Origin: Salinisphaeraceae bacterium
Lineage (GTDB): Bacteria > Pseudomonadota > Gammaproteobacteria > Nevskiales > Salinisphaeraceae
Direction of reading: 5' to 3'
NCBI GenBank assembly: GCA_002683405.1
Contig: NYTH01000028.1
Location: 186,001 to 250,000, forward strand
DNA: 64,000 nt
Shown here: in pieces, positions 7,342 through 29,032 of the stretch
Position numbering within the stretch: the first letter of the stretch is position 1
Layout: every line of letters starts with the position of its first letter
Program-made: the position numbers and the translations under genes
The notes under the pieces: generated by a model
Told to the model about the DNA's origin: nothing
The model's input: only the letters and a program-made list of their open reading frames with translations
Databases searched by the model: none

Positions 7342-8390
7342 GTCTGATCAACCTGGGCAATCTGCCGCTCGCGGCGGTCATTGCGGTGTTTCTGGCATCG
7401 GCCGGCGTCATCGCGCTGGCCGGCACTCGCATGACGCGACTGGCCGATCGGCTGGCCGACCTGACCGGTATGGGTGAAGCGCTGTTCGGCGCGGTCCTGC
7501 TGGGCGGCGTGACATCGCTGCCGGGCATCCTGGCGTCGGTGGTGGCGGCGCTCGAGGGCTACCCGCAGCTGGCCGTCAGCAACGCCGTGGGCGGGATTGC
7601 GGCGCAGATCACCTTTTTGGCCGTGGCGGATATCTTCTACCGCAAGGCCAATCTTGAGCACGCGGCCGCCTCGGTTGAAAATCTGGTCCAGGCCGCCCTG
7701 CTGGGTGCCCTGCTGTCGATTCCGCTGCTCGCCATGTCGGCCCCGGACTTCCACGTCTGGGGCGTCAATCCGGCGTCGGTGCTGCTGATTGGCGCCTATG
7801 TGTTCGGCATCCGCCTCGTGGCACAGGCACGCAGCGGCGCCTACTGGCAGCCGCGCCACACCGCCGAAACCACGCTCGACGAACCGGATGAGCCGGCGCC
7901 TGGCGCAACGCGCAGTGCGCTATGGCGGGTGTGGGGCGCGTTCGCGCTGTACGGCGGCATCGTTGCCGTCGCCGGCTACACCGTCGCCGAAAGCGGTATC
8001 GCCCTGAGTCAGCGCACGGGGCTGTCGGAAACGGTGGTGGGCGGTCTGTTCACGGCCATCGCCACGTCACTGCCCGAGCTGGTGACCTCCATCGCCGCCG
8101 TGCGGCGCGGCGCCCTGACGCTGGCAGTGGGCGGCATTATCGGCGGCAACAGCTTTGATGTGCTTTTCGTGGCCTTCTCGGATGTGGCCTACCGCCCCGG
8201 CTCGATCTACCACGCCATCAACGAGCAGCAGATTTTCGTCATTGCGCTCAGCCTGCTGCTCAACGGCATCCTGCTGCTGGGCCTGCTGCGCCGCGAGCGG
8301 CGCGGAATTGCCAACATCGGTTTCGAAAGCTTTCTGGTGCTCCTGCTCTACGCCGGCGGTTTTGCCCTGATCAGCCTGAGCCAGGCATGA
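7338..8390 (+). CDS. Sodium/calcium exchanger (CaCA) family protein
   Basis: A 350-residue membrane protein with two internally related halves of about five helices each. Both halves contain the alpha-repeat that forms the ion site: [16 protein letters not shown] and, with near-perfect family agreement, [17 protein letters not shown] followed by [10 protein letters not shown]. Family members exchange Ca2+ for Na+ or H+ across the inner membrane. The first repeat has Pro-Gly where the second has Pro-Glu, so one canonical acidic ligand is missing, which may alter ion choice. It overlaps both neighbours by ATGA. Confidence 0.8.
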
Positions 8391-8725
8391 CGGACAGCAT
8401 CAGGCAGCAGCTGCTTGACGCCCTTGCCCGGCTTGAATCCGGCGAGCAGGCCCGGCGGGGCATGGGGCAAACAGTCGAACTGGACCAGACGCGTACCGGC
8501 CGGCTGTCACGCATGGACGCCCTGGCGGCCCAGCAGATGGCAGCCGCCGGGGAACGTCGTGCCCGCGCGCAGATACAGCGGCTCAAGGCCGCTCTGCGTC
8601 GTGTCGAAGACGGCAGTTACGGCGACTGCCTGGACTGCGGCGAGGCCATTGCGCCCGGCCGGCTGCAGGCGGATCCCGCCGCTACATGCTGTATCGCCTG
8701 TGCCAGCCGCCGCGAGACCGGGTGA
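8387..8725 (+). CDS. DksA/TraR-type C4 zinc-finger protein
   Basis: A 112-residue protein with a helical N-terminal half and a C-terminal C4 zinc finger: CLDC at 81-84 and CIAC at 102-105. The finger motif [11 protein letters not shown] and the closing CASRRE are typical of short DksA-like proteins. These can bind the secondary channel of RNA polymerase, though the DxxDxA tip motif of true DksA is not clear here. It is the last gene of the MATE / exchanger operon, starting inside the exchanger's stop codon. Confidence 0.8.
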
Positions 8726-8734
8726 CCGAGGCCG

Positions 8735-9403
8735 CTATTCCGGCGCTATCAGCAGCTCGCGTAGCTGATCTGCCACGCCGCCACAGGCGGCCGATCGGGT
8801 ACGCGCCACCATGGGAATGGGAATCAGCACCGCCGGCATGTAAGACGTGCCGGTGGCGTCCACGCTGACGCGGCCCACCGCGGTGCGCTTTTCAAGATCC
8901 CAGACCGATGCTTCGTATTCCGCCTGATTCTCCCACCAGACAAAGCCGAGGCACCCGCCGCCACCGGGCCCCGCCGCGCAGGACATGCCGCCCCCGCGGT
9001 CCTTGTCGCTGGTGTAGCCGTCCAGCCAGACCAGATACCGCACCCCCAGCTCGGCGACCCGCGCTTCGACCGCGCTGTCGGCCAGCAGCCGGGCCAGACC
9101 GGCCGGATCCTGCGGCGCCGTGCGCGGCTCGAACCAGGGAAACATGCCGTTGCGGAAATCGGCCTCCGAGAGCACGGTGACCGGGCCACCCTCCAGCCGG
9201 TCCGCCACGCAGGCGACCACGCCCGCCTCGGCCTGATTACCGACGTTCTGCTTGCGGCCCAGCACGACCACACCGTGGCCGGAGCCCGGCGCCGCGGCGG
9301 TCACCGGCGATTCGCGCAACTGCTCCACCTTGCTGCTCACACAGCCACCCAGCGCCAGGCCGAGGGCCAGAGTGACGATCGCGCGCCGGCTAGCGCTCGA
9401 CAT
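8735..9403 (-). CDS. Lipoprotein of unknown function, last gene of the vWA/TolQ operon
   Basis: A 222-residue protein with a lipoprotein signal: basic start, hydrophobic stretch and lipobox LGGC with Cys21. The mature part has a Gly-rich cysteine segment (GGGMSCAAGPGGGGC) and motifs such as VRYLVWLDG and YEASVWDLEKR that recall CsgG/TolB-like accessory lipoproteins; this is resemblance only. The ATG at 9403 lies 14 bases inside the preceding gene, so translation is probably coupled. It is the most distal gene of the twelve-gene operon. Confidence 0.65.
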   Translation of the reverse strand: MSSASRRAIVTLALGLALGGCVSSKVEQLRESPVTAAAPGSGHGVVVLGRKQNVGNQAEAGVVACVADRLEGGPVTVLSEADFRNGMFPWFEPRTAPQDPAGLARLLADSAVEARVAELGVRYLVWLDGYTSDKDRGGGMSCAAGPGGGGCLGFVWWENQAEYEASVWDLEKRTAVGRVSVDATGTSYMPAVLIPIPMVARTRSAACGGVADQLRELLIAPE

Positions 9404-9989
9404 GACTCTGCAGCGCTGCATCCCGCGCAAACCGGACCGCGAAGCCGGCAGCCGCATCGCGCAGCGCCATTTCCGTGGCGTCGCGCAACGCATCGCTGCC
9501 GCCCAGGAAACGGGCCTCACTGCGGCCATAGGCAGTCAGCGGCCACTCGCTCAGCAGCGTCCCCTGTCCATCGTGAAAACGAAGCTGGTACTTGAACCAG
9601 GCTTCGTAGAATTCCGTGAAGCTCAGCTCGGGCGTGCTGAACTGGAAATCCACCAGCTCGGGCGTCACCACGAGATCGACTTCCGGCGCCGGCTGCTCGC
9701 CTTCGAGGCGCTCGGACTGCGTGAACATGCCGTCCAGAAGCTGACTGAACATGGCGGTGTTGGCCTGGCCAATGGCAATATCCCAGCGACCGGCGCCTTC
9801 CAGTTCCTCGCTGTGCCGATAGTTGGCGAACGCGGCGCTGACTCGCAGCGCCACCCGCGCGTCCTTCTTCTGCATGACGGGCACGGGGAATTCCTGCCCC
9901 ACCTGAACCGACTTCGGCCCGCAGCCCACCATCAGCAGCATCGTCACCAGCCCCAGAACAGGGAAAGATCGCCCGGCAGCGCGTGTCAT
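9390..9989 (-). CDS. Lipoprotein of unknown function
   Basis: A 199-residue predicted outer-membrane lipoprotein: MTRAAGRSF start, hydrophobic core, lipobox MVGC with Cys23. The mature part alternates short strands and helices (VALRVSAAFANYR, IAIGQANTAMFSQLLDGMF, PELVDFQFSTPELSFTEFYEAWFKYQLRF), like small auxiliary lipoproteins of envelope machines. I do not recognise the family. The ATG at 9989 overlaps the stop of the upstream vWA gene (ATGA), so it belongs to the same operon. Confidence 0.65.
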   Translation of the reverse strand: MTRAAGRSFPVLGLVTMLLMVGCGPKSVQVGQEFPVPVMQKKDARVALRVSAAFANYRHSEELEGAGRWDIAIGQANTAMFSQLLDGMFTQSERLEGEQPAPEVDLVVTPELVDFQFSTPELSFTEFYEAWFKYQLRFHDGQGTLLSEWPLTAYGRSEARFLGGSDALRDATEMALRDAAAGFAVRFARDAALQSHVER

Positions 9990-10993
9990 TTGAGATCCTG
10001 CAAGCCCACGAAGGTGCCCCCGTTTTCGTAGCACAAGGTACGCATGAGCGTGGCAAAGCGGATGCCCGTGGGCCGCGCCCCGCCGCCGGCAAACTGCACC
10101 GGAAAGCCCACGGCATGAATGCGCACCCGGTGGCGGCCCCGCGCGTCGCGCGGATTCAGCCGCGCAACCGTATCCAGCACCTGCTGCACCGACGGCCCCG
10201 TGAATTCGTCGCCGAAGACGTAAAGACTGACGCGGTCATTGTTGCGGCCGTAGGTCTGGATGGCCCGGGCAATACCCTCCACCGGGCTGCTGTTTGAGAA
10301 CGGCTGCCAGCTGCGCAACTGCTCCAGAATGACTTTCCGGCGACCGGGCGTATCGGGAATCCATTTGCCGGCATAGCTGCCGAACAGATAGTCGCCCATG
10401 TCGTTCATCACCTGGATGCCTTTCACCCGCGGGTAGATATCCAGCGTCTGTTCCAGCTTGCGCAGCATGTATGGCCAGGCGTAGCTCTGCATGCTGCCGG
10501 AGGTGTCAATGATGAAGATGATGTATTCGCTGTCCACCGGAATGCCGCCCACGGGGGCATCCGGCCGGCGCGCCGGGCTGTTGGCCAGCAGCCTTCGCAT
10601 CTCTTCGGTGAGTTCCTGACGCGCAATGGCCAGTCTGTCCTCGATGGTGGCCGCGGCTCGAGACTCCAGTCGGTTGTCCTTCTCCGCCGCCTGCCTGCTG
10701 GCGGCTGCCGGCGCGAGTCTGGCCACGCGCTGTCGCGCCTGCGCCAGCCGGTCCTGCTCATCCGCCAGTTTTTCCTGCAGGCTGGTGACCGTCTGTTCCA
10801 GCTGCGGTAGCCGCGAGGCCAGCTCCTCCGCCATGTTTTCCATACCGGTGCCGCGATCCTCCACGATGGTCGGCTCGGCAGTCTTGGTGAGCACCAGCAA
10901 CAGCACGATGGCGCCAAAGCCGCAGCAGATGGCGTCCAGAAAGGACAGGCCAATACCGTCCGAGTCGTCCCGCCGGCGTCGTTTGAGCCGCAT
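9986..10993 (-). CDS. vWA-domain membrane protein with ExbD/TolR-like membrane helix (second paralogue)
   Basis: A 335-residue protein with a basic N-terminus (MRLKRRRRDD) and one membrane helix beginning LSFLDAICCGFGAIVLLLVL, with Asp20 at its start. A coiled-coil of about 85 residues (45-140) follows, then a vWA domain with MIDAS motif DTSGS at 163-167. The basic end predicts a cytoplasmic N-terminus and periplasmic vWA domain. An Asp at the mouth of a single N-terminal helix is the hallmark of ExbD, TolR and MotB, the partners of TolQ-type channels, and such a channel is in this operon. I chose the ATG at 10993, which overlaps the upstream stop (TGATG). Confidence 0.75.
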   Translation of the reverse strand: MRLKRRRRDDSDGIGLSFLDAICCGFGAIVLLLVLTKTAEPTIVEDRGTGMENMAEELASRLPQLEQTVTSLQEKLADEQDRLAQARQRVARLAPAAASRQAAEKDNRLESRAAATIEDRLAIARQELTEEMRRLLANSPARRPDAPVGGIPVDSEYIIFIIDTSGSMQSYAWPYMLRKLEQTLDIYPRVKGIQVMNDMGDYLFGSYAGKWIPDTPGRRKVILEQLRSWQPFSNSSPVEGIARAIQTYGRNNDRVSLYVFGDEFTGPSVQQVLDTVARLNPRDARGRHRVRIHAVGFPVQFAGGGARPTGIRFATLMRTLCYENGGTFVGLQDLK

Positions 10994-12066
10994 CAGGGCC
11001 AATCTCTCGACGGGCTCAGAAAGGCGCCACCGGTCTGCTGCGCCAGCGCCCAGTAGCTCGCAGAGGCCAGCGGATCACCCTCGATGGGCAGCAGGATCAC
11101 GTTGACGGGTACGCCGCCGGGCAACAGGCCGCGGGCGTTGTTGAACAGCTTGAGACGATCGTTGCCCGACACGGCGCCGGTGTTACGCGCCGCCGCATCC
11201 TGCGTGGGCAGGCCGTCGGTCACCAGATAGATCTGATCCGGACGAGGGGAGAGTTTCGCGGCCGCCGCGAAGGCGTTGTGCAGGCTGGTGCCGTTCTCGG
11301 GACGCGTCGCCCGCAGTCCGCGTACGGCCTCCGACAGGCGGGCACCGCCCGCCGCGGACAGCCATTGGCCGTCTGTGCCGGCTATCGTGGCGCGGGGCTT
11401 GGTGTTGAAGGCGTACAGCTGGAACTGGGCGCTCGCGGGCATCTGGGCCGTTAACCAGTCCACGGTGCGCAGCGCACGCTGCCACTTCTCGGCACCTTGT
11501 CGCCGGCTGTCCGACATGTTCCGCAACCGAATTACATCGACGATGCTGTCGGCGAGCATGCTGGCCGACACGTCAGCCAGAATGAGAATACGGCGGCCCT
11601 CCACGACCAGGCCAGTCAGATACTGGCGCTGACCTTCGCCCTGGAAGTCGCGGGTGGCGTCACCCTGCGCCTGCTGGCGCTCGCGAAGCGATTTGACCTC
11701 CGCCTCCAGGCTGCGCACCTCCTCCTGCAGGCTGGCGATACGCTCACCGCTGTCATCCGGCGGACGGGGGTCGGGCTGTGTGTCCAGCGCCTGCTGCAGG
11801 CTGGCCGCCTGGGCCTGCGCCGCCTTGCGCTGCTTCTCGGTTTCCTCCAGCGCCGCGGCCAGCTCCCGCTGCGCCTGCCGTTTTTCGAGCACCTCGTCTT
11901 CCACCAGACTCAGCCGTGCGGCGACATCGCGATGGGTGTCCACGGCGCGCACTTCGGTGGAATGGTTGATGATCATGAACAGCAGAATGACGGCGCCCAG
12001 ACCACAGGACATGCAGTCGATGAACGACAGGCTGAAGGTGCTGAAAGCACGCTTGCGCCGTGCCAC
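10993..12066 (-). CDS. vWA-domain membrane protein with ExbD/TolR-like membrane helix (first paralogue)
   Basis: A 357-residue paralogue of the next gene with the same plan: basic N-terminus (MARRKRAF), one membrane helix starting LSFIDCMSCGLGAVILLFMI with Asp17, a coiled-coil at about 45-135, and a vWA domain with MIDAS motif DVSAS at 165-169. Shared helix pattern: LSF(I/L)D...CG.GA..LL. A GTG at 12066 is the likely start, one base after the upstream stop; a start at 12126 would add a non-hydrophobic, unrelated stretch inside the upstream gene. vWA domains bind divalent metal and partner proteins. Confidence 0.75.
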   Translation of the reverse strand: MARRKRAFSTFSLSFIDCMSCGLGAVILLFMIINHSTEVRAVDTHRDVAARLSLVEDEVLEKRQAQRELAAALEETEKQRKAAQAQAASLQQALDTQPDPRPPDDSGERIASLQEEVRSLEAEVKSLRERQQAQGDATRDFQGEGQRQYLTGLVVEGRRILILADVSASMLADSIVDVIRLRNMSDSRRQGAEKWQRALRTVDWLTAQMPASAQFQLYAFNTKPRATIAGTDGQWLSAAGGARLSEAVRGLRATRPENGTSLHNAFAAAAKLSPRPDQIYLVTDGLPTQDAAARNTGAVSGNDRLKLFNNARGLLPGGVPVNVILLPIEGDPLASASYWALAQQTGGAFLSPSRDWP

Positions 12067-12067
12067 T

Positions 12068-13342
12068 TCAGGCCTCCACGTGCACCAGCGTCCAGCGCCG
12101 GCCGTCGCAGTCCAGTACATCGCCACAGCTCAGTTCAGCGGGCTCGCTCAGCACCCCGCCGTTCAGGGACACCGGGGCCTTGGCGGGCTGCAGCGCCCAG
12201 ACGCCGTCCCGCGTCAGCATCGGACCACCCGGACCCGAGCCCTGCAGCAGGCCTTCCGAAAGGCGCCGGGCCACGCCCGATTCGTCAAGCAGATGCGTGG
12301 GGGCGGGGTCTTGCGGCGCCGAGGCGGTCGCCGCTGGCGCAGGACACGCCGAGGCAGTTTGCCGCGGCAGACGCGTCACGAATGCCGGCGCCGCCGCATC
12401 GCTGCGGATGTCCGCCGCCGCCGCGCAGGCCGCGCGAACCAGGTCGGTCTCGCTGAAAGACCGGATATCGGCGTCCAGCCCATCCATCAGACCCGGCAGA
12501 CGGGCCAGCACGTGATCGACGAACACCGGCCCCTCGGCAGCCGCGATCCGCTGCCGTAGCGGCTCGTAGACCGATTCCGCTGCAGCGACGAGATCCCGCC
12601 GCTGCAGTTCCACGCCGTGCGTGCGTCCGCCCGCCTGCAGCTCCATGCGGCCGGCCGGCGCATCGTCCAGGCGCGCCAGGCCGTCGGGCAGGGCGTCGTA
12701 GAGCTGCTGCTCCACCGCGGCCTCGTGCAGCGGGTCGAACCGGGCCTGCCGCACAAAACACTGGGCGATATGCCGGACCCAAAGATCATCCAGACCGGCA
12801 AGCCCCTGCCGCAGCAGCAATTCGCGATCCGTCAGGCTGACCGAGTCTCCCACCGTCACGCTTGTTTCCCAGACCGAATGCAAGCCGGCCTCAAGCACCG
12901 TGACGGGCCCCGGCGCCGCCGCGGCAAGTCCGGGCAACAGACCGCTGGCCACCAGCCCGGTCACGTTCACGTTCATCGACTGGGTCACGCCCAGCAGCAG
13001 CGCCAGGGCGGCAGCATCCAGCCAGGGCGGCACGGCCAGCAGGTATTCGCCTGCCTCATCGTCCGCTTCGGCCAGTAGCGACTGCAAATGGAAATACGCC
13101 AGGTCCGCGTGATGCCGCGCTCGCCCCGCCGGCCGCCGCAGCGGCTGCTGATTCAGCTCGCTCCAGAAGCGATTGAAGCTGTGACGCGGGTTGATCCGCG
13201 CGCGCTGCCGGGCGGGCTGCCCCAGCAGCAGCCGGCTGCCCTCCGCCACGGCAAAGCCGGGGCTGCAGGCCAGCAGGCCGTCCTGACCACCCAGCGCCAG
13301 CCGGGCGTCGTTGACGTAAAGCGCGGCGAGGTCAGTGCTCAT
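12068..13342 (-). CDS. Divergent Hsp70/actin-like ATPase fold with an FHA-like C-terminus
   Basis: A 424-residue cytoplasmic-looking protein with no signal or membrane helix. The N-terminal 180 residues resemble an Hsp70 nucleotide-binding domain: LLLGQPARQRARINPRHSFN corresponds to the 'vGxxAkrqaxxNPxnT' region, and LLAVPPWLDAAALALLLGV to the 'AVPAyFndaQR' region. The DnaK-type phosphate-1 loop is not recognisable, so ATP use is uncertain. The last 60 residues (PVSLNGGVL, then LSCGDVLDCDGRRWTLV) look like the second half of an FHA domain. It overlaps the TolQ-like gene by 11 bases. Fold assignment is by eye. Confidence 0.5.
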   Translation of the reverse strand: MSTDLAALYVNDARLALGGQDGLLACSPGFAVAEGSRLLLGQPARQRARINPRHSFNRFWSELNQQPLRRPAGRARHHADLAYFHLQSLLAEADDEAGEYLLAVPPWLDAAALALLLGVTQSMNVNVTGLVASGLLPGLAAAAPGPVTVLEAGLHSVWETSVTVGDSVSLTDRELLLRQGLAGLDDLWVRHIAQCFVRQARFDPLHEAAVEQQLYDALPDGLARLDDAPAGRMELQAGGRTHGVELQRRDLVAAAESVYEPLRQRIAAAEGPVFVDHVLARLPGLMDGLDADIRSFSETDLVRAACAAAADIRSDAAAPAFVTRLPRQTASACPAPAATASAPQDPAPTHLLDESGVARRLSEGLLQGSGPGGPMLTRDGVWALQPAKAPVSLNGGVLSEPAELSCGDVLDCDGRRWTLVHVEA

Positions 13343-14138
13343 GCGGAGCCTGCAGGTTCTGCAGCAGCCGGCGGTCGCAGGCGTCGTGCGTGTCCAGCAC
13401 CAGACGTTCCTGCATGAGCTGCAGCTGATGCAGCAGGAACATCAGGATGATGGACAGCACCAGCGCCACGAAGGTGGAATTGAAGGCCAGCCCCAGCGCC
13501 GCGGTGACGCCACTGATGTCCCCGTCCACGGCCTGCTGCGCCAGCCCAAGCGCCTCGCCGATGCCGCGGACCGTGCCGATGAAGCCGATGGAGGGAATGG
13601 CCCAGGCGATATAGCGCACCATCGACATTTCCGAATCCAGCCGGTCATTCTCGGCTTCGCAGACGCTGCCCACCGCGTCGGAGACGTCCTGGATATTGCC
13701 GGTGGAGCGAAACCGGTGCAGCGCCGCCAGCAGCGCGCGGGGGTAAAGGTAGGTGCGCTGCGGCTGCTCGAGCGCCTCGAGCGAGCGGGCGTACTCCCGC
13801 GTGTCCTGCGGCAGAATGCTCTCGCCGGCGCCCAGCGGCAGCAGATCGGTTTCCAGTAGCCGCCGCTCGCGATTCACACCGGCGGCCTTGAGCGCCAGCA
13901 GCGCCATTGCCCAGAGCATGAGAATAAAGCAGACCTCCTGCTCGTAATCGCGGATGATCACCCACACCGATCGTTCGGGAATGTGGTCGGGATTCTCCGC
14001 CAGTTGGGCCTGCTGAACCGCGTCGTGCGCGCGGGCCTGCGGCCGGATTACCCCCACGTAGGCCGCGTGTACAAAGATGATGGCAATCAGCAGCGCAAAC
14101 AGCTGATAGACGAATTCGACCGATAATCTGCCGCGCAT
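13332..14138 (-). CDS. MotA/TolQ/ExbB-type proton channel protein
   Basis: A 268-residue inner-membrane protein with three hydrophobic segments: near the N-terminus (FVYQLFALLIAIIFVHAAYV), around residues 70-87 (CFILMLWAMALLAL), and the C-terminal pair around IAWAIPSIGFIGTVRGIGEA and FNSTFVALVLSIILMFLL. The P.IGFIGTV.GI..A motif followed by an ALGLAF.ST..AL.L helix is the signature of TolQ/ExbB/MotA channels, which pass protons to drive work in the periplasm. No separate ExbD/TolR gene is present; the two vWA proteins downstream are the natural partners. Confidence 0.85.
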   Translation of the reverse strand: MRGRLSVEFVYQLFALLIAIIFVHAAYVGVIRPQARAHDAVQQAQLAENPDHIPERSVWVIIRDYEQEVCFILMLWAMALLALKAAGVNRERRLLETDLLPLGAGESILPQDTREYARSLEALEQPQRTYLYPRALLAALHRFRSTGNIQDVSDAVGSVCEAENDRLDSEMSMVRYIAWAIPSIGFIGTVRGIGEALGLAQQAVDGDISGVTAALGLAFNSTFVALVLSIILMFLLHQLQLMQERLVLDTHDACDRRLLQNLQAPHEH

Positions 14139-14148
14139 GAGTTGTGTC

Positions 14149-14376
14149 CTATATATCGGCCGGAAAGGCCACGACCGTGTCGGCCCGGATACGTTCGGAC
14201 GGCTTGAAGTCGCGGCGCGGCGGCGGGGGCGCTTCCCGCTCGGCCGGCGTGGATGCCGCGGACTCGCCGGCCGGCGGCTTCTCCGTCGCTTCCTGCCGGG
14301 TCGGCTGCGCCGCCAGCAGCGTAGCCGTGGCCAGTCCGACCAGCGCGAGGGTCAGGGTGAGTAATCGACGCGTCAT
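14149..14376 (-). CDS. Small secreted Pro/Glu-rich protein
   Basis: A 75-residue protein with a signal peptide (MTRRLLTLTLALVGLATATLL, cleavage near AA-QP) followed by a disordered stretch rich in Glu, Pro, Ala and Arg (EREAPPPPRRDFKPSERIRA). It matches no family I know. It starts inside the stop codon of the PEGA/SUMF1 gene (ATGA at 14373-14376) and lies 10 bases before the TolQ-like gene, so it is a genuine member of the operon. It could be a periplasmic linker or assembly factor. Confidence 0.6.
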   Translation of the reverse strand: MTRRLLTLTLALVGLATATLLAAQPTRQEATEKPPAGESAASTPAEREAPPPPRRDFKPSERIRADTVVAFPADI

Positions 14377-16433
14377 TCCTCAGCCTCCGCATAACGGGCA
14401 ATCCTGAAACCCAGATCATCGCGGCCGCTGCCGGCGCTGTCACGCCAGGCCAGTCGCAGCTCGGTGATCCGGCCGTGGCGCCAGCTCGCGCCGCGCACCC
14501 GGTGCTCGCCGCCGGCATCGCTGCCAAGCGGATCGGTGAGTTCCGCACGCGGCACCAGGCTGACCCCGCCGCTGCTGTCGTTGACCCACTCCGAGACGTT
14601 GCCGCCCAGGTCGTGAATCCCCAGCGCATTGGCCGCGAAACGGCCGACCGGAGCCGCCGCGCGAAAGCCGTCGTCGTAGCTGTCGAGATGCTCGCTGAGC
14701 AGCGCCGCCGAGGCGCGATCGGCGTAGTTGCCGGCACGACCGGTGGGCGGCATGGTCTGGCCCCAGGCATATTTCAGGTCGCGCCCGCCGGCGAAGCGCG
14801 CGGCATAGGCCCATTCGGCCTCGGTCGGCAGCCGGTAGCCGGTATTCACAGGCGTCACGAGCTGGCCGCCGGCGTAGGCGGCAGGCAGGCCGTCGCGCTC
14901 GCTCAGCCAGTTGCAGAAGGCCGTGGCCTCGGCCCAGGACACGCGCACCACCGGGTAGTTGTCGTTGTCCAGCGTGGTGCGCTCGACGATGCCCGAAGAA
15001 TGACCGGACTTGAACTGCCGGAAGGCCGCATTGGTGACTTCGTGCACGGCCAGATAGAACGGCCGCGTCAGCCGGACAGGCTGCTGGACCTCGTTGTTCT
15101 GCCGGCCCTGTTCGCGCCGCGGCGAGCCCATGGTGAACCGGCCGGGCTGAATCAGGACCAGCGACTGACCGGTCGCCGCAGTCACGCGCGCCGGCACGGC
15201 CTCCGCCTTTGCCTGCGCCTGACTTTTCAGCCGGATATTCAGCGACTGGGCCGTGTCCGGCCGCGGCGTGACGCTCACCTCGTGGCTCACGTAACCGGGC
15301 TTGCGGATACTCAGCTTGTGCGGCACCGCGGTAAGCCGGAGCGTCTGGCTGGCGGCGCCGCGATCGGTACCGTCGACAAACAGGCGCGCATCGGCCGGCG
15401 TGGCGGTGACCCGGATCTCACCGAGCACGGGCTCCAGCTCGAAACTGGCGCTATCCTGCTCATCCGCGTTCAGCGTGAAGCGACGGCTCGCCGCACTGTA
15501 GCCGGCCTTCGTCAGCTTGATCAGGCTGTCCTGACCGGGCTTGAGGCTGACGGTGAGCGGCGTGCTGCCCTGGAACTGCCCGTCCACGGTCACGCTGGCC
15601 CCGGCCGGACGGCTGGTCAGTTTCAATCGGCCCAGGGCCGGCTGCAGCGTCACGGTGTCCAGCTCGCGCGGCTGGTCGGCCTTGACGGTCAGGGGCTGGG
15701 TACGCGTTTGATAACCGGCCAGCCGATAGGTGATTTCGTGATCGCCGGCGCCCACGTCCGTAGTCAGCGGGGTCTGCCCGCGCGGCTTGCCGTCGATCAG
15801 CACGGTGGCGCCGGCCGGCTGGCTGGAGAAACCGATGGCCGCCCAGGCCGGCACGAGTTCGGCGTCCACCTGTAGCGCCTTGTCCAGCCCCTCGATGGTG
15901 ATTTTCTCTCGCCAGACTTCATAGCGCTCTGCGCGCAGCGTCAGGTCATATTCGCCGGGTGGCAGCTTGTGATCCCGCAGCGGCGTTTCGCCCACGGGCT
16001 GTTCGTTCACGCTTCCCCGGGCGCCCGCCGGCGTGCTGCTGACGCCAAGGCGCCCGGGCAGCTTCTGCAGCTTGAAATCGAAGACGGCATCCTCGCCCGG
16101 CTTGACCGTTATGGTTTGCGAAAACGGCTCGTAACCGGCGCGCGAGGCCTGCACCTGGTAGTTACCCGGTCGCATCAGGCGACGCTCGCCTACGGGCAGG
16201 CTCCAGCCGCCCGACACCGACACCGACTCGGCGGCCGGTTCGAAACGCAGTTGCACCGATAACGCGGTCAGCAGATACCAGGCCGCCACAGCAAAAATCA
16301 GCAGCCCCGCGCCCACCACGAGGGCCAGCGGTCGTACCGGCAGTCCGGACGCAGACGCTGACGCCTGACCGGGCGGCTCGAATCGCGCGGGTTGTACCCG
16401 GTCGTGATCCTGATCGCCGCCCGGCCCGGTCAA
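14373..16433 (-). CDS. PEGA-repeat membrane protein with a SUMF1/FGE-like C-terminal domain
   Basis: A 686-residue protein: cytoplasmic N-terminus, one membrane helix at about 33-57, five PEGA-type beta repeats from about 60 to 400 (for example STPAGARGSVNEQPVGETPL, SQPAGATVLIDGKPRGQTPL), then a formylglycine-generating-enzyme fold from about 430 (LIQPGRFTMGSP, HEVTNAAFRQF, YRLPTEAEWAYAAR, GIHDLGGNVSEWV, LGFRIAR). The paired cysteines that make true FGE catalytic are absent from the RVRGASWRHGR...RLAWRDSAG region, so it is probably a binding or structural domain. The start is a TTG overlapping the upstream stop (TTGA). Confidence 0.8.
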   Translation of the reverse strand: MTGPGGDQDHDRVQPARFEPPGQASASASGLPVRPLALVVGAGLLIFAVAAWYLLTALSVQLRFEPAAESVSVSGGWSLPVGERRLMRPGNYQVQASRAGYEPFSQTITVKPGEDAVFDFKLQKLPGRLGVSSTPAGARGSVNEQPVGETPLRDHKLPPGEYDLTLRAERYEVWREKITIEGLDKALQVDAELVPAWAAIGFSSQPAGATVLIDGKPRGQTPLTTDVGAGDHEITYRLAGYQTRTQPLTVKADQPRELDTVTLQPALGRLKLTSRPAGASVTVDGQFQGSTPLTVSLKPGQDSLIKLTKAGYSAASRRFTLNADEQDSASFELEPVLGEIRVTATPADARLFVDGTDRGAASQTLRLTAVPHKLSIRKPGYVSHEVSVTPRPDTAQSLNIRLKSQAQAKAEAVPARVTAATGQSLVLIQPGRFTMGSPRREQGRQNNEVQQPVRLTRPFYLAVHEVTNAAFRQFKSGHSSGIVERTTLDNDNYPVVRVSWAEATAFCNWLSERDGLPAAYAGGQLVTPVNTGYRLPTEAEWAYAARFAGGRDLKYAWGQTMPPTGRAGNYADRASAALLSEHLDSYDDGFRAAAPVGRFAANALGIHDLGGNVSEWVNDSSGGVSLVPRAELTDPLGSDAGGEHRVRGASWRHGRITELRLAWRDSAGSGRDDLGFRIARYAEAEE

Positions 16434-18052
16434 ATTCTCTCCTGACAGACGATGCGGATCGGACCTACCGTCTCGGCGTCCGGCGCCACGGTGAACTCGC
16501 GCCGCACGTCACGATAGCCTTCGCGCCGCCCGACGGCCGTGTAGTCACCCGGCCTGAGTTCCAGGCTGTGATCGGCAAATGTCCCCAGCTCGCCCACATG
16601 GTGAATGGCCACCACGGTCTGGTTATCGGACGTCAACACCACCGGAACCGGCGTCTGCGCCTGCTCAAGCGCCTGCGCCAGCTGGCGTGTCTGCGCATCC
16701 AGCTTTTCCCGCGGCGCGGGCAGCTGTTTGGCCTCGGCCAGCAGCCTCGCCACGTCCTGCCGCACGGCCGGCTCGCTCAACCGGCCGGTGTTCTGCAGGT
16801 GATAGGCGAGTTTGCTGTCCAGCGCCGCGCGTTCGGCGGCCCGCGCCTGTCCTTCCTGGGCGAACTTCAGGCTCGGATCAGCCTGCAGCGCTGCCTGATA
16901 GGCGGCTTCGGCATCCTCCCAGCGTTCGGCCTGCTCGGCCTGGCGGCCCGCCTGGCGCTGGCCGTCGACCTGACGCGCCTGCAGCGTCGTGTTGATGCGG
17001 GACAGCGCATCCTCCACCTCGACCGAATCCGGCCGCAGGCGGCCGGCGCTTTCCAGCGTGTCACGCGCCTGCGTCAGATTGCCCTGTTCGAGTTCCTGCA
17101 GGCCCTCGGACAGCCGCGCACGGTAGACGCGATCATTTATCAGACCCTGAACGCGGGCGCGCGCCTGCCGGGCGTCGTTGTACTCGGCGTCCAGCTCGAC
17201 CGCCTTGTCATAGGCATCCCGGGCGCCGACCATGTCTTCCGCGGTTTCCAGATTGCGGCCCTGCCGCATGAACTCGAGCACTTCTCCCCGCTTGCCGGCC
17301 CGTTCCAGCAGACGAGCAGCCTCGGCGTTGTCCGGGCGCACGGCAGCGGCCATTTCGAAGGACTTCACGGCCGACTCGTAGTCGCCCTGATCCAGCTGTT
17401 CCCGGCCTCGCGTCATGGCCTGTTCGAATACGGTCTCGCGGCTGTCCGTTATCTTCACGGCCGAAGCCCGGGCTTCCTCGAAGGCGACGGAAGCCAGCTC
17501 GTAGTTCCGGGCGGACATCTCGCGGTCGCCCTTGTCGACGAGATGATTCAGCCCCTGCCAGGCCTGCGCTGCCCAGCGCGGCGCCCCCTGCTGCTCCAGC
17601 GCATCGCGCATTTCCACGACTTCGGCGCGCACCGCCTCCGCGGCTTCCCGCTGTTCCAGCAGGGCGTCGGCATCGGCCGCAGTCGACGCGGTCGGCGCGT
17701 CCGCGTCCACATCGGGCTCGTCGGCAGACTGCGCATCCGGCGCCGGGGTGGCATTGCTCTCAGCCTGGCTCGGAGCTGCCGCGGGGGCGGGAGACGACGC
17801 CGCGGCCGGCGCCTGTGGTGGCGGCGCTGCAGACTGTTCGCGCTCGGCCACCTGGCCCGGCAGCCAGAGGAACACCGCACCGCCCAGACACAGCAACCCG
17901 AGCAGCCCCCAGAGCAGGATGCCGGTGGACATCGCGCTCTCCGGCTCGCGGTATCCGGGCTGCGCCTCGGGTTCGTCCAGCTTCACGTAGGCGGGGTTGA
18001 TCCGCTGGAAGCTGTCGGCGTTGCCGCCTTGTTGTTGCTTGTCATCTGTCAT
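16430..18052 (-). CDS. TPR-rich single-pass membrane protein with PEGA-like C-terminus
   Basis: A 540-residue protein starting at ATG 18052 (MTDDKQQQGG). A short cytoplasmic part is followed by a membrane helix at about 47-66 (LLWGLLGLLCLGGAVFLWLP), a Pro/Ala-rich linker, and about 400 residues of helical TPR-like repeats (QLDQGDYESAVKSFEMAAAV, AERWEDAEAAYQAALQADPS). The last 70 residues (SLELRPGDYTAVGRREGYRD) match a PEGA repeat. It is the likely partner of the PEGA/SUMF1 protein, whose start lies inside its stop codon, and probably a periplasmic scaffold. Confidence 0.75.
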   Translation of the reverse strand: MTDDKQQQGGNADSFQRINPAYVKLDEPEAQPGYREPESAMSTGILLWGLLGLLCLGGAVFLWLPGQVAEREQSAAPPPQAPAAASSPAPAAAPSQAESNATPAPDAQSADEPDVDADAPTASTAADADALLEQREAAEAVRAEVVEMRDALEQQGAPRWAAQAWQGLNHLVDKGDREMSARNYELASVAFEEARASAVKITDSRETVFEQAMTRGREQLDQGDYESAVKSFEMAAAVRPDNAEAARLLERAGKRGEVLEFMRQGRNLETAEDMVGARDAYDKAVELDAEYNDARQARARVQGLINDRVYRARLSEGLQELEQGNLTQARDTLESAGRLRPDSVEVEDALSRINTTLQARQVDGQRQAGRQAEQAERWEDAEAAYQAALQADPSLKFAQEGQARAAERAALDSKLAYHLQNTGRLSEPAVRQDVARLLAEAKQLPAPREKLDAQTRQLAQALEQAQTPVPVVLTSDNQTVVAIHHVGELGTFADHSLELRPGDYTAVGRREGYRDVRREFTVAPDAETVGPIRIVCQERI

Positions 18053-18142
18053 GTTCACGACCGGGGCTTGAGGCGGCCACTGGCGGACCACCGGGGAGAT
18101 GAGACGTCGAATGAAGCCGGAGGGCAGCGGCCCCCGCCGACG

Positions 18143-19429
18143 CTAGCGCGCCTGATTCTCCGCATCCTCACCGTTGCTGACAAGGCCGGTTTCTTCCGCA
18201 TAGATCCGGTGCAGCAGCTTGCGCCAGTCCTCGTACTGCTGTTCGGCCGAGCCGGACAGCGTGACGGTCTGGTTCTCCAGTTCCACCACGGTGGGCTTGA
18301 CGTCGCTCTCGAGCGAGCGCCCCAGCTCTTCGAGGGACGCGGCGTGAAGCTCGGATTCGCGCCCCTTGTCGAGCCCGCTCTTGAACATGTAAACGCCGGC
18401 CGCAATGGCGCCTACCGAAGCAGCGGACTGGGCCGAGCCCCGCCGGATATCGCCCGAACTGGGATTCGAGCCGCCGCTGCCGCCGGCGGTAATCAGGCCG
18501 GCCACGCCCGCCACCACGGCCGCGGCGCCCGCAAGCTTGCGCGTCAGCGATTGCCGGCTGAGGGTGTTGTAGGCCTCGACCTCGGTGTAGGCGGCCGAGC
18601 GCCATTCGTCGTAGTTGGGGTCGATCTGGGTCCGAAAGAGCTGGTAGTGCTGATCCAGCGAATCGATCAGCGCGTAGTCGCGCGCTCTGATCTGCTCGAT
18701 ACGCTGCCGGAACGGATCGTCGGCGGCCGGCAACCCTTTCACCGAGTATCGACCGCCCTTGGCCGCCAGATAGCGCGAGTAGGCAGCCGGCGCGATGTCC
18801 GCACCGAAACGCAGTTCGGACACCCGGCGCAACGCCACCAGCTCGCTGCTCTCCAGCTGCCGCCGGGCTTCGAGCAGATCATCGGCAATCCGGTTGTAGA
18901 CGGCCTGGAACGGGTCGGTGCGCGCCAGCACCTCGGGCCGATAGTTCAGCTTGGCGGCTTCGTGACTGTAGGTCCGGTCGAGCCATTCGCGGCCGCTGGC
19001 GTCCTCAGCGGTAATCTGCAGCTTCAGTTCCAGGCCGTCCGACTGCAGGATGCGGCCGCTGACCAGCAGTTCCGACCAGGGGATCGGCTCGGGCACCACG
19101 CGCACCGCGCCCCACTGCCCCGTACTCTGCAGCGTGTCGCGCAGCATGACCGGCATGTAGCGGCTTTCGGCCTTGCGCACTTCCGGAAAGATGTATTCCG
19201 CCTCCTGCTCTTCCACGGACTCGGGAATATTCGGGTCGAACATCGCAATGTTGATGTTGACCAGCTTTTCTTCCGGCAACTCGGTTTCGGCATGTTCCGG
19301 CGGGGTGGCGTCGACGCGCTTGACCGACTGCGTTGCACAACCCGCCTGCAGGAGCATTGCGGTGAACAGGGCCGCCAGGCCCGCCTGCCCGGCGCGGGCA
19401 CGGCCGGGCGCCATCGAAAGGCTGAACAT
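18143..19429 (-). CDS. Large lipoprotein of unknown family with a Gly-rich hydrophobic segment
   Basis: A 428-residue protein with lipoprotein signal and lipobox LQAGC (Cys31). The mature N-terminal half contains VNINIAMFDPNIPE and ELLVSGRILQSDGLELKLQITAED, like CsgG/TolB-type accessory folds that compute an outer-membrane scaffold. Residues about 285-360 are Gly/Ala-rich and hydrophobic (AAAVVAGVAGLITAGGSGGS, GAIAAGVYMFKSGLDKG), resembling glycine-zipper segments that could enter a membrane. It starts in the stop codon of the upstream lipoprotein gene (TGATG at 19427-19431). I do not recognise a named family. Confidence 0.65.
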   Translation of the reverse strand: MFSLSMAPGRARAGQAGLAALFTAMLLQAGCATQSVKRVDATPPEHAETELPEEKLVNINIAMFDPNIPESVEEQEAEYIFPEVRKAESRYMPVMLRDTLQSTGQWGAVRVVPEPIPWSELLVSGRILQSDGLELKLQITAEDASGREWLDRTYSHEAAKLNYRPEVLARTDPFQAVYNRIADDLLEARRQLESSELVALRRVSELRFGADIAPAAYSRYLAAKGGRYSVKGLPAADDPFRQRIEQIRARDYALIDSLDQHYQLFRTQIDPNYDEWRSAAYTEVEAYNTLSRQSLTRKLAGAAAVVAGVAGLITAGGSGGSNPSSGDIRRGSAQSAASVGAIAAGVYMFKSGLDKGRESELHAASLEELGRSLESDVKPTVVELENQTVTLSGSAEQQYEDWRKLLHRIYAEETGLVSNGEDAENQAR

Positions 19430-20181
19430 CAGCGATTACTCCGTTTGTAGGCCCGGTACTCTTCCCAGAGTTTTTCCCTGAGTTCCGGATCGGTCTCGTT
19501 TTCGGCCGCCTCCCGCAGCTGGCGGGCGACCACGTCATCGTCCTGCCCGCTGGGTATGTCCGCCGGCGGGGGCGGCAGATTGTTGCGAGTGGCGCTGGCC
19601 ACGCTGCCGGTATCGCGCACCGGATTGTCCTCGTCCGCGCCGCGCTCGCCCGGCGGCAGCGGCACGCCGGCCGCGTCGTAGCCGCCCTGCCCGGCAGGAT
19701 CATCGCCACCGGCGCCGGAACCGCCTCTCTGGGCGTCACGGTCGGCCTGGGCCTGGCCCTTTTCGTCCAGCTCGTACTGCTCGCGCATCAGCCGCTCGTC
19801 GAACACCGCCAGGCTGCGGTCGAACTCCTCGTCCAGCGCCTCCTGGCGCTCACCACGCGTCTGCGCGCCGCTGGCGGGCTCGCCAGACGAGGGGCTGCCG
19901 CCGGCCGGGCGCGAGACGGCATCCCCGCCGCTCGGCGCGGCCTTCGCCTGCTGCGATTGGCCTTGCGCGTCCGGGGCTTGTCGCGTGTCGGCAGGGGCTG
20001 GCGCGGGGGCGCGGCTGGCGGATGACGAAGCCGGCGGCGATGGCGGCGAGGCCGGGTTGCTGGCACAGCCGGCCGTCAGACCGGCCATGACCAGCCCCAG
20101 CAGACCGATGCCCGCCCGATTTGCAGCAATTCGCCCTCGCCTCATGCCCTGTTGGACAGTGAATGCATGTACAGGTTTCAT
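19429..20181 (-). CDS. Low-complexity lipoprotein
   Basis: A 250-residue protein with lipobox LTAGC (Cys39) followed by a long disordered region of Ser, Pro, Ala, Gly and Gln (SPPSPPASSSASRAPAPAPA), then a charged helical end (QLREAAENETDPELREKLWE). Such tails often span the periplasm or tether partners. The start at 20181 overlaps the upstream stop (ATGA); an ATG at 20145 would shorten the signal to MRRGRIAAN... and is also plausible. No family recognised. Confidence 0.6.
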   Translation of the reverse strand: MKPVHAFTVQQGMRRGRIAANRAGIGLLGLVMAGLTAGCASNPASPPSPPASSSASRAPAPAPADTRQAPDAQGQSQQAKAAPSGGDAVSRPAGGSPSSGEPASGAQTRGERQEALDEEFDRSLAVFDERLMREQYELDEKGQAQADRDAQRGGSGAGGDDPAGQGGYDAAGVPLPPGERGADEDNPVRDTGSVASATRNNLPPPPADIPSGQDDDVVARQLREAAENETDPELREKLWEEYRAYKRSNR

Positions 20182-21572
20182 GAGTCCGACTCCCCGCCCG
20201 CGTCTCCGGGCGTTTCGGGCAGATAGCGAAAGCGCATGCGATACAGCACGTCGCGCGTGAATTCGGCGCCGCTGGCCGTCACCCGCGGGCGAAACCGGGC
20301 TTCCCGCAGCGCGCGCTCGGAGCGCAGCCGCATGTCGGCGGCCTCGGCCGGCACAATGTCTTCCGCTTCGGGCACGCTCACGCGACCCTGCGGCGTCACG
20401 TTGAAGCGAAAACTCACGTAGCCCTCGGGCAGGCCCGCGGCCGGCAGCTCGCCCACCCCGTCACGCGGCGCGGGTCGGGGGACGAACAGCGGCTGCGCGG
20501 ACCCGAACCAGCTCGTTTGCAGCTCGGGCCTGCCCGCCTCTTCCAGCAGCGCCCAGGCGTGCCCGTAAAGCTGGTTGGCCCGCTTCGGGCTTCTGAAGGT
20601 CATGTAATAGTCGCCGAGCTCGCGCTTGAGCCGCGCCAGATCGACCGCCGAGAAGCGCTCGGGGTGCTTGCGCGCAATTTCGTCGGCCAGCTCGAGATCG
20701 GCCAGACCGTAGGTTTCCGGCTCGTAGGCCGCGCGATAGCTGCGCGCCAGCGCCTGCAGCGTTTCCACCTGGCGCCAGTCGTCAGCACCGTAGCGCGCCC
20801 GGATGAGTTTGAGCTTGTCCCGCAGCACCAGCCGCTGCTGCCAGTACTGGCCGGTACGGCCCAGAAAATCGCCGACCTGCTCGGCCGTTTCCAGGGCGTC
20901 GTCGCTGGCCGGGCCCTGACTCTGCTGCACGATCGACAGCTGCGCGCGGGCGTGGGCCTGCGCCTGTTCGTACTGCCCAAGCGCCAGGCTGGTTTCTGCC
21001 AGCCCCCGCAGGGCGGGCAGCTGGGTTTCGCTCTTGAGGCCGTAGCTGGAGCGCGCCGTGAAAAAGGCCTGCCCCAGCGCCTCCTGCGCCGGCTGGTAGC
21101 GGCCGCGACCGTATTCGACCACGCCAATGCCGTAGTAAACGGGCAGCTGACGAGGGTCACGGGCACCGTTACCGCCGGCCGCAATCAGATCGAGTGCCTG
21201 CTGATAATGCCCGATCGCGGTCTGCGGCTCGCCCAGACGCTGGTACAGATGCCCCAGGTTGGTCTGCACCGCGATGCGGCTATCCGTATCGTCCGGCTCG
21301 GCGGCCAGGTCCAGCAGCAGGCCCAGCGCGTCGGGCAGTCGGTCCTGCCGAACGGCCGCGTCGATGCGATCCTGCTGCGCAGGGGCCGCCGGCATGGGCA
21401 GCAGTGCAGGCAGGGCCAGCGAGTTCAGTTCGATATAGGGCGGCCCGGGCTCCGGCAGACCGACCTGGGCCTCGGCCGGCAGAACGCCGGCGAAGCAGAT
21501 CATCCCCAGCATGGCCCAGCGCCGGACGCCTGCGGCCGGATCGGTTGATCTAGCTTGAATCTGACTGCGCAT
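20178..21572 (-). CDS. TPR protein with a TonB-like C-terminal domain
   Basis: A 464-residue exported protein: signal peptide ending near LPAEAQ, then TPR repeats (QTNLGHLYQRLGEPQTAIGH, AEEALGQ-type helices), and a C-terminal 80 residues (GYVSFRFNVTPQGRVSVPEA, ALREARFRPRV) that match the TonB C-terminal fold. Unlike TonB it has a cleavable signal instead of a membrane anchor, so it would be free in the periplasm or outer-membrane bound. It is the first envelope gene of the operon. I use the ATG at 21572; its start lies 23 bases inside the FAD oxidase gene. Confidence 0.75.
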   Translation of the reverse strand: MRSQIQARSTDPAAGVRRWAMLGMICFAGVLPAEAQVGLPEPGPPYIELNSLALPALLPMPAAPAQQDRIDAAVRQDRLPDALGLLLDLAAEPDDTDSRIAVQTNLGHLYQRLGEPQTAIGHYQQALDLIAAGGNGARDPRQLPVYYGIGVVEYGRGRYQPAQEALGQAFFTARSSYGLKSETQLPALRGLAETSLALGQYEQAQAHARAQLSIVQQSQGPASDDALETAEQVGDFLGRTGQYWQQRLVLRDKLKLIRARYGADDWRQVETLQALARSYRAAYEPETYGLADLELADEIARKHPERFSAVDLARLKRELGDYYMTFRSPKRANQLYGHAWALLEEAGRPELQTSWFGSAQPLFVPRPAPRDGVGELPAAGLPEGYVSFRFNVTPQGRVSVPEAEDIVPAEAADMRLRSERALREARFRPRVTASGAEFTRDVLYRMRFRYLPETPGDAGGESDS

Positions 21573-22989
21573 CGGCAATCACGGCCCCCGGGTTGAACAG
21601 CCCCTGTGGATCAAGCGCCTGCTTGATGACACGCATCATGCCGGTTTCCTGGCTTGACGCACGCTGAACAAGCTCGTCGCGCTTGAGTCGGCCAATACCG
21701 TGCTCGGCGGCGAAGGAGCCGTCCATGTCATCGACGATATCGTGAATCATGCGGTTGAACTCGGCCTGTCGGGTCATGAAGTGCGCGCCGTCGGCGCCGG
21801 TCGGCTGCGACAGGTTGAAGTGCAGGTTACCGTCGCCGATATGCCCGAATGCACAGATACGCAGCGCCGGCTCGGCCCGATGCACCGCGCGGCTGGCACG
21901 CGCCAGCAGTTCCGGGATGCGGGAGACCGCAACCGAGATGTCGTGCTTGATCGACGCGCCTTCGCGTGTCTGCGCTTCGGGGATATTTTCCCGTATGCGC
22001 CAGAAGTCGCCCGCCTCACGCAGACTGGACGCCACGACTGCGTCGCGGATTTCGCCGGCGTCCAGCGCCTGGGCCAACGCCGACTGCAGCGCCGATTCAA
22101 GCCAGTCACCACCCGCCGGCGACGACAGCTCGACCAGCAGGTACCAGGGCTGCGGCGACTCGAAGGGGTCGCGGCAACCGTCGATGTGCCGCACGGCGAT
22201 ATCCATGGCGAACCGGGGAAACAGTTCGCAGGCAGTCAGGTTGTCCCCACTGTCCGCACGCAGCCGGCGCGCTAGGGCCAGCCCTGACGCGGGGTCATCC
22301 AGCGCAAGCAGGGCCGTGTAACGCTGGCGCAGCGGCGGGAACAACTTGAGCACGGCGGCGGTGATAATGCCCAGCGTGCCTTCGCTGCCGACGAAAAGCT
22401 GCTTCAGGTCGTAGCCGCGATTGTCCTTGCGCAGCCCGCGCAGCGCCGACCAGACGCTGCCATCCGCCAGCACCACCTCCAGCCCCAGCACCAGATCGCG
22501 AGTGTTGCCGTAGCGCAGCACGTTCAATCCGCCGGCATTGGTCGCGAGATTGCCGCCGATCTGGCAGCTGCCCTCGGCGCCCAGGGAAAGCGGGAAAAAC
22601 CGGCCGGCATCCGCCGCCGCCTGCTGTAGATCGGCCAGCACACACCCCGCTTCCACGGTCATGCTGTCGTTGGCCGCATCAAGCGCCCGAATGCGGTTCA
22701 GGCGAGACAGCGAAAGCAGCACCTGCTGCCGATCGGATTGCGGCACCGCCCCGCCCACCAGGCCGGTGTTGCCGGACTGGGGCACGATTTTAAGACCCTG
22801 ATCGGCGCAGATAGCCACCACTTCTGCCACTTCCCGCGTGCTACCGGGCCGCAGCACGGCCCGAGCGCGGCCGGCGAACTGGCCACGCCATTCGCGCAGG
22901 TAGGCGGCCGTCTCCGACGTCCGGGTCAGCACGTGCTGCTTGCCAATCACCGCGGCGAAGCGGGCGAGCGTCGAGTCGGTTTCGGTCAT
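21550..22989 (-). CDS. FAD-binding oxidoreductase (D-2-hydroxyacid dehydrogenase type)
   Basis: A 479-residue protein of the VAO/PCMH flavoprotein family: FAD_binding_4 domain with PQSGNTGLVGG at 70-80 and GSCQIGGNLATNAGGLNVLR, and a C-terminal FAD-oxidase domain with FGHIGDGNLHFN and EHGIGRLKR. This set occurs in D-lactate, glycolate and D-2-hydroxyglutarate dehydrogenases; the substrate cannot be told from sequence. Start at ATG 22989 (MTETDSTLAR); an earlier start would add residues with no similarity. It overlaps the TPR/TonB gene by 23 bases and may be read through into the envelope operon. Confidence 0.85.
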   Translation of the reverse strand: MTETDSTLARFAAVIGKQHVLTRTSETAAYLREWRGQFAGRARAVLRPGSTREVAEVVAICADQGLKIVPQSGNTGLVGGAVPQSDRQQVLLSLSRLNRIRALDAANDSMTVEAGCVLADLQQAAADAGRFFPLSLGAEGSCQIGGNLATNAGGLNVLRYGNTRDLVLGLEVVLADGSVWSALRGLRKDNRGYDLKQLFVGSEGTLGIITAAVLKLFPPLRQRYTALLALDDPASGLALARRLRADSGDNLTACELFPRFAMDIAVRHIDGCRDPFESPQPWYLLVELSSPAGGDWLESALQSALAQALDAGEIRDAVVASSLREAGDFWRIRENIPEAQTREGASIKHDISVAVSRIPELLARASRAVHRAEPALRICAFGHIGDGNLHFNLSQPTGADGAHFMTRQAEFNRMIHDIVDDMDGSFAAEHGIGRLKRDELVQRASSQETGMMRVIKQALDPQGLFNPGAVIADAQSDSS

Positions 22990-23095
22990 CAATCCGGACA
23001 GATTGCGCAAAACATGCCGCAAACTTAGCAGTATTGCGGCGTATCCCCCATCCACGGCATTGACCCCGCCGGTCGGCTGGCATACAACGCCCGGC

Positions 23096-28956: not shown

Positions 28957-29032
28957 TGGAGCGGCGAACGAGGTTCGAACTCGCGACCTCAACCTTGGGA
29001 GGGTTGCGCTCTACCAACTGAGCTACCGCCGC
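28957..29032 (-). tRNA. tRNA-Gly (anticodon CCC)
   Basis: The minus strand folds as a complete 76-nt tRNA: acceptor GCGGCGG paired with TCGCCGC (one G-U), D-arm AGCTCAGTTGGTAGAGC, anticodon stem CAACC/GGTTG with loop CTCCCAA giving anticodon CCC, T-arm with TTCGAAC, discriminator T and an encoded CCA. It reads GGG glycine codons. Partial copies flank it on both sides. Confidence 0.93.

Follow-up and report, generated by a model that had tools for sequence, protein, structure and literature searches.

The 64,000-nucleotide stretch of contig NYTH01000028.1 from a Salinisphaeraceae bacterium (positions 186,001 to 250,000 of the forward strand; the whole stretch is referred to as the window) contains an operon of twelve genes, designated here A to L, all of which are encoded on the minus strand and which together span positions 8735 to about 21578 of the window. 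The sequence features of the encoded proteins, together with the order and co-occurrence of the genes in other genomes, support the view that the operon specifies one conserved and co-inherited trans-envelope system, which is built around a TolQ/MotA-like channel. In an earlier interpretation made from the nucleotide sequence (the sequence-only reading), twelve minus-strand genes with specific domains were described at this locus, and this description is in accordance with the domains identified in the present work, viz. TPR (A and D), PEGA and SUMF1 (E), MotA_ExbB (G), vWA (I and J) and a lipobox (B, C, K and L). The same interpretation held that nearly all of the gene junctions overlap. This is correct for 8 of the 11 junctions, where the overlaps are 1–14 nucleotides (nt) in length (A-B 4, B-C 1, D-E 4, E-F 4, G-H 11, I-J 1, J-K 4 and K-L 14 nt); however, the remaining three junctions contain gaps (C-D 90 nt, F-G 10 nt and H-I 1 nt).

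Probable motor, regulator and scaffold proteins of the operon

The core gene G (13332–14138) encodes a channel protein of the MotA/TolQ/ExbB family, which matches the MotA_ExbB domain with an E-value of 4.6e-13. In a profile alignment of G with TolQ, the residues T189, T222 and P182 of G correspond to T145, T178 and P138 of TolQ, and all three of them are invariant in the sequences compared (75/75). In TolQRA structures, T145 and T178 of TolQ form the polar ring that binds D23 of TolR (PMC12583513). The proteins encoded by the core genes I (10993–12066) and J (9986–10993) are paralogous (hhalign probability 99.7%) and they share a common layout consisting of an N-terminal TolR-like pore helix, a coiled coil and a vWA domain. 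The N-terminal helix contains the motif SFLDxxxCGFGA in each of them, and the Asp within this helix (Asp37 of I and Asp23 of J in the listed open reading frames (ORFs) P0008 and P0009, respectively) is invariant in 82/82 sequences of I and 86/86 sequences of J. The vWA domain was matched in both proteins, with the best vWA match of J falling under the Pfam cut-off, and the metal ion-dependent adhesion site (MIDAS) is intact in both, its residues being invariant or nearly so. When the profiles of I and J were compared with the PDB, mostly coiled-coil matches were obtained (e.g. to ATP synthase b), and we read matches of this type as chance similarity between coiled coils.

The host genome contains seven other loci with MotA/ExbB matches, each of which is adjoined by an ExbD or MotB gene, and the locus described here, where no ExbD, TolR or MotB gene is present, is the only MotA/ExbB locus of this genome lacking one. 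Due to the presence of an invariant Asp helix in I and J, the threonine ring in G and the absence of any other rotor gene, the simplest reading of these sequences is that the vWA pair I and J probably stands in for ExbD/TolR/MotB as the rotor. The vWA proteins had earlier been interpreted as periplasmic arms, but they would not be just arms, as the ExbD/TolR/MotB-type Asp helix which they carry indicates that they are probably the rotor itself.

The gene H (12068–13342), located between G and I, encodes a cytoplasmic protein for which the predicted structure (predicted local distance difference test score, pLDDT, 90) shows the Hsp70 nucleotide-binding domain in its entirety, with an FHA-type domain located C-terminal to it. 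The model superimposes on the Hsp70 nucleotide-binding domain with a Z-score of 28 and a root-mean-square deviation of 3.1 over 312 residues, whereas the similarity to Hsp70 based on sequence profile alone is weak (E-values from 0.04 to 9e-4); hence, the assignment of H to Hsp70 is one based on the predicted fold. The Pfam FHA domain was matched in 9 of 38 H orthologues (best E-value 4.5e-13), the H protein from the window being under the threshold. Although H thus shares its fold and the FHA profile with known Hsp70 and FHA proteins, the Hsp70 substrate-binding domain was not found in it, an FHA-like part being present at the C-terminal end instead, and in place of the phosphate-2 motif GGGT and the adenosine motif GG it contains LDxxLHR and RAAxxPG, respectively. 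Since the glycine-rich nucleotide-binding motifs are lost, it is unlikely that H functions as an ATPase, and the earlier suggestion of a chaperone-like ATPase at this locus is therefore not favoured. Further, H is present between G and I at 39 loci, but it is cleanly absent (with G adjoining I directly or almost directly) at 27 of the 66 informative loci (about 40%). Because of this, H is regarded as an accessory component and, as it is optional, it is probably a regulator or a platform.

Of the proposed scaffold proteins, that encoded by E (14373–16433; core) spans the inner membrane once and contains five PEGA repeats in addition to a SUMF1 domain. By profile comparison this SUMF1 domain is closest to FGE and PorK, the E-value for PorK in the PDB being 1e-27 and human FGE matching at least equally well. 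However, the catalytic segment located between RGxSW and LGFR contains no Cys in any of the 69 sequences (69/69) and the copper-binding cysteines of FGE are thus absent. Due to this, it is very unlikely, judging from these sequences, that E is a sulfatase-activating enzyme. Gene D (16430–18052; core) likewise encodes a single-pass inner-membrane protein, with periplasmic TPRs, and TPR domains were also detected in the accessory protein A (20178–21578), which has a signal peptide and a TonB-C-like end. A shows 24–30% identity to its orthologues, and the TonB_C domain is detectable in 3 of 7 of them. The lipoprotein encoded by C (18143–19429; core) matched no Pfam family beyond chance among 54 orthologues, and its profile gave no match in the PDB. 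In its structural model (pLDDT 86), residues 41–199 show a modest resemblance to FlgT, CsgG, PelC, TolB-N, PqiC and LptE (Z-scores: FlgT 8.5, PelC 7.7, CsgG 7.5 and TolB 7.0; Foldseek E-values of 4e-3 or higher) and they are followed by a long Gly-rich helical hairpin.

The core lipoprotein B (19429–20181) contains a low-complexity linker followed by a strongly conserved C-terminal motif (DDD[IV]VARQLREAAExExDPxLRxxLWxEYxxYK). The core gene F (14149–14376) encodes a 75-aa micropeptide, either exported or signal-anchored, which ends in FPADI; elsewhere its length is reduced to about 35 aa, as at one locus with C-D-E-F-G-I-J. An ORF with the ending [FYL]Px[DN][IL] is found between E and G in 77 of 83 loci, in comparison to 88 of 33,075 background ORFs. 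As the conserved C-terminal tails of F and B sit on flexible linkers, their sequences suggest that they are docking peptides, and the micropeptide F provides a simple handle on the system, as its C-terminal FPxDI is both a marker of the system and a target for mutation. The accessory genes K (9390–9989; mostly gammaproteobacterial) and L (8735–9403; gammaproteobacterial) encode two further lipoproteins, the latter with a conserved Cys and Trp; a comparison of the L profile with the PDB gave no match.

Conservation and distribution of the gene set

A search with J detected matches in 10 of 81 genomes, viz. the host and nine members of the same order, while no match was obtained in the 16 further members of the host's own family. 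Based on tblastn and profile scans of their corresponding regions, the order A to L is kept in eight of these nine relatives and, in the ninth, as far as its contig extends; the match for A was weak in two of the relatives. When named genomes were scanned with the J profile, at least 201 relatives were identified. The best 80 of these are from Gammaproteobacteria, Betaproteobacteria, Desulfobacterales, Desulfobulbaceae, Desulfuromonadales, Myxococcales, Phycisphaerales and Vicinamibacteria, with the taxon labels as given in the sequence records, which are mostly for metagenome bins. The core genes B, C, D, E, F, G, I and J are present and identically arranged in Gammaproteobacteria, Desulfobacterota, Phycisphaerales (Planctomycetes) and Vicinamibacteria, and the core order across phyla is C-D-E-F-G-(H)-I-J. 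Among loci selected by J alone, counting only those where the upstream DNA suffices, I is present without exception (71/71), as are the combination of G with I (60/60) and that of E with both of these (53/53), and all four of D, E, G and I are present in 42/47. As the A to L order is kept in eight other genomes and the J-selected loci carry G, I and E, this set of genes is not a chance assemblage. The sequence-only reading had proposed that the channel, PEGA, TPR and lipoprotein genes constitute one trans-envelope system, with synteny of its core across genera as the check, and both the synteny, which extends from Gammaproteobacteria to the other phyla noted above, and the co-occurrence of the genes are in agreement with this proposal. 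At one Myxococcales locus (L076), the genes lie in two separate and oppositely oriented blocks, viz. G-H-I-J and B-C-D-E, but this locus still holds the parts of the machine together.

The genes A, K and L are found almost only at gammaproteobacterial loci and, together with H, they are regarded as optional genes of particular lineages. In the Bowmanella family, where I is present in 40 of 247 genomes, a divergent branch is observed (E about 1e-75), which has kept C-D-E-F-G-I-J, while B is partly recognisable and H is lacking. Two genomes, G379 (loci L169, i.e. G379:C1:1-16000, and L152) and G510 (loci L176 and L140), contain the whole machine twice, in copies which have diverged from each other, one belonging to the closer branch and the other to the divergent H-less branch. 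A diverged H-less version is also carried by seven sampled species of one genus from another class of the same phylum (loci L131-L134 from G105, G120, G192 and G128). Overall, the distribution is patchy, with the system found in only 10 of the 299 genomes sampled from the phylum, which argues against an essential housekeeping role. Outside the core, the conserved neighbours are SUF genes in Pseudomonadales and ATP sulfurylase in Desulfobacterales, which look lineage-specific and unrelated to the machine.

The start positions of several genes within the window have been corrected (D 18052; I, GTG 12066; J, ATG 10993; K, ATG 9989; and L, ATG 9403). At the D-E junction, a GTG or TTG start of E lies within the stop of D, and this also applies to the eight relatives for which D and E were both read. 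The start of A is uncertain, with TTG 21578, ATG 21572 and ATG 21512 all possible. Upstream of the operon and on the same strand is an FAD-linked oxidase gene, which ends at 21550 (region 21512–23112) and is overlapped by the A starts at 21572 and 21578, but not by that at 21512. As this gene is on the same strand and possibly overlaps A, the transcription unit might extend upstream. A promoter scan revealed no site directly upstream of A and three weak matches within the operon. Downstream, the operon is followed by a convergent TraR/DksA-type gene (8387–8725). The sole tRNA of the window is a tRNA-Gly (ccc) on the minus strand (28957–29032).

Proposed machine

We consider it likely that the operon encodes one proton-driven rotary trans-envelope machine, in which G would be the channel, I and J the rotor, and E, D, C, B and F the coupling parts. 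In this proposal, G would form an inner-membrane channel of the TolQ/MotA type, presumably pentameric, into the pore of which one I and one J would insert their N-terminal Asp helices, giving a stoichiometry of 5:1:1 for G, I and J. The flow of protons would then rotate I and J as a pair, moving their coiled coils and vWA heads within the periplasm, where the heads would engage the scaffold, probably via the MIDAS metal sites and the tails at the C-termini of F and B. The scaffold itself would consist of the inner-membrane proteins E, with its PEGA repeats and non-catalytic SUMF1 head, and D, with its TPRs, as well as the lipoproteins C and B at the outer membrane, and by contact with it, force would be transmitted to the outer membrane. 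In many lineages, the channel side of the machine would additionally include the cytoplasmic protein H, acting as a regulator or platform, while A, K and L would extend the outer-membrane side. Candidate uses of the force include surface or envelope remodelling, the handling of polymers or lipoproteins, or motility. Few systems deliver proton energy to the outer membrane, and here two unlike vWA domains would serve as the rotor. As its set of partners is fixed, the machine also defines testable parts, viz. a G-I-J motor and an E-D-C-B-F coupling.

A number of observations should be weighed against this proposal. By its full profile, G shows weak similarity to TolQ (PDB E-value 0.12; 21.6 bits for the NCBIfam TolQ equivalog, for which the cut-off is 221), and the G-I-J complex is here a prediction from sequence. 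The use of the proton as the coupling ion is assumed and sodium is possible. Further, the correlation between the protein distances for different genes of the set (r 0.65–0.91, the highest being 0.91 for I-J), which speaks in favour of one machine, is in part due to shared ancestry; the CsgG/TolB-N-like fold of C, with modest Z-scores of 6–8.5, may reflect merely a common arrangement; and the predicted sorting of the lipoproteins to the outer membrane (Lol) is inferred from their lipoboxes alone.

Alternative interpretations and relationship to known systems

A doubtful alternative is that the operon specifies a machine of the AglRQS-Glt/Nfs type for gliding, adhesion to surfaces or the assembly of a coat, with the vWA domains as adhesion heads. 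In Myxococcus, AglR belongs to the MotA/TolQ/ExbB family and AglQ and AglS to the ExbD/TolR family, and the plan of one TolQ-like channel with two unlike TolR-like rotor subunits, together with TPR and outer-membrane parts, is the same as that seen here (PMC3169522). D also shows a weak match to GltJ; however, its score of 21.9 bits is far from the equivalog cut-off of 450. In addition, AglQ and AglS are of the ExbD fold whereas I and J are vWA proteins, no ExbD family match is present in the operon, the scaffold is without a family-level match, and no GltA/B/H-like porin was found in the operon by profile search. The hosts of the machine include many free-living marine or sediment bacteria, for which gliding is not known, and this also counts against the above possibility.

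A Tol-Pal- or Ton-like motor for envelope maintenance or uptake, in which vWA proteins have become the rotors, is similarly of low probability. The TolQ-type pore threonines of G, the rotor Asp, the possible TolB-N-like fold of C and the TonB_C domain of A are all consistent with such a motor. However, no TolR/ExbD, TolA, TolB propeller, Pal or TonB-dependent receptor was found in the operon by profile, G scores below the equivalog cut-offs not only for TolQ, as noted earlier, but also for ExbB2 (16.6 vs 135), the host has separate loci of the ExbB/ExbD type, and the patchy distribution of the system speaks against this function. An assembly or secretion motor resembling GldLM-KN of the type IX secretion system, in which E would be a PorK/GldK-like ring subunit and C the outer-membrane ring, is improbable. 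Both systems would combine a proton motor with a periplasmic SUMF1-domain protein, E matches GldK/PorK in the NCBIfam (107.2 bits) as well as in the PDB, and C shows a modest resemblance to the ring or pore lipoproteins PelC, CsgG and FlgT. However, the GldK cut-off of 350 is not reached, PorK is no better a match to E than human FGE, E is a PEGA protein of the inner membrane, no relatives of GldL, GldM or SprA are present in the operon, and no conserved cargo genes adjoin the core. It is distinctly improbable that G-I-J is merely an ion channel or sensor, with the vWA pair acting as a metal-dependent chaperone or signalling module rather than as a force-producing rotor, for while vWA proteins often serve as chaperone partners and the FHA and Hsp70 folds of H are suggestive of signalling, the Asp/Thr motor signature is invariant in I, J and G, H is absent from 27 of the 66 informative loci and a multi-part envelope scaffold co-travels with the motor. 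A role in anti-phage defence (Zorya) was also considered and rejected, as the match of G to ZorA is weak (4.9e-5) and no ZorB, ZorC or ZorD is present.

With regard to the proton-driven machine proposed above, its motor has a precedent. Membrane-tethered vWA genes, usually in unlike pairs, have been described to be tightly linked to tolQ-like genes in the absence of tolR/exbD (Mol Biol Evol 2025, msaf138, PMC12204202), and the AlphaFold 3 models presented in that work (Fig. 4c,d), where Idiomarina loihiensis is named, show an Asp-bearing pore helix of the vWA protein and a Thr ring in the TolQ-like subunit. A 5:2 complex, in which the helices of the vWA proteins lie within the pentamer, is likewise presented there as an AlphaFold 3 model. 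The absence of tolR/exbD/motB, the unlike vWA pair with the Asp helix and the Thr ring are all shared by G-I-J, and based on these sequence characteristics the G-I-J core fits the TPH-vWA/TolQ family of that work. As the same core was thus predicted in 2025, the motor idea is not new, and the description of the system as undescribed in the sequence-only reading holds only in part. However, the section of that paper on TPH-vWA deals with the motor genes only and makes no mention of A-F, H, K, L or of a function, and the present work links this structural prediction to a whole machine. For the complete machine, no description was found in the open-access literature, although preprints or subscription papers may hold one, and the degenerate Hsp70-FHA protein H, the PorK-like SUMF1 domain of E, the CsgG/PelC/TolB-N-like protein C and the micropeptide F also appear to be without one. 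The machine is real, widespread and largely uncharacterised, with the idea of its motor published and the whole apparently not.

The absence of a match to the Tol-Pal, Ton, Mot or type IX systems, as stated earlier from the sequence, is upheld by the profile cut-offs. On balance, we lean towards the view that the operon represents a complete, undescribed class of trans-envelope system on a par with Tol-Pal, Ton, the type IX secretion system and Agl-Glt, which would be distinguished by a vWA-heterodimer rotor with working metal sites, a PEGA/SUMF1 and TPR scaffold with outer-membrane lipoproteins, docking tails (FPxDI in F and DDDIVARQLREAA...EYxxYK in B) and an optional, degenerate Hsp70-FHA regulator. 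By analogy with the systems compared here, the best reading is that this machine would work like TolQRA, GldLM or AglRQS-Glt, but that it belongs to none of them.

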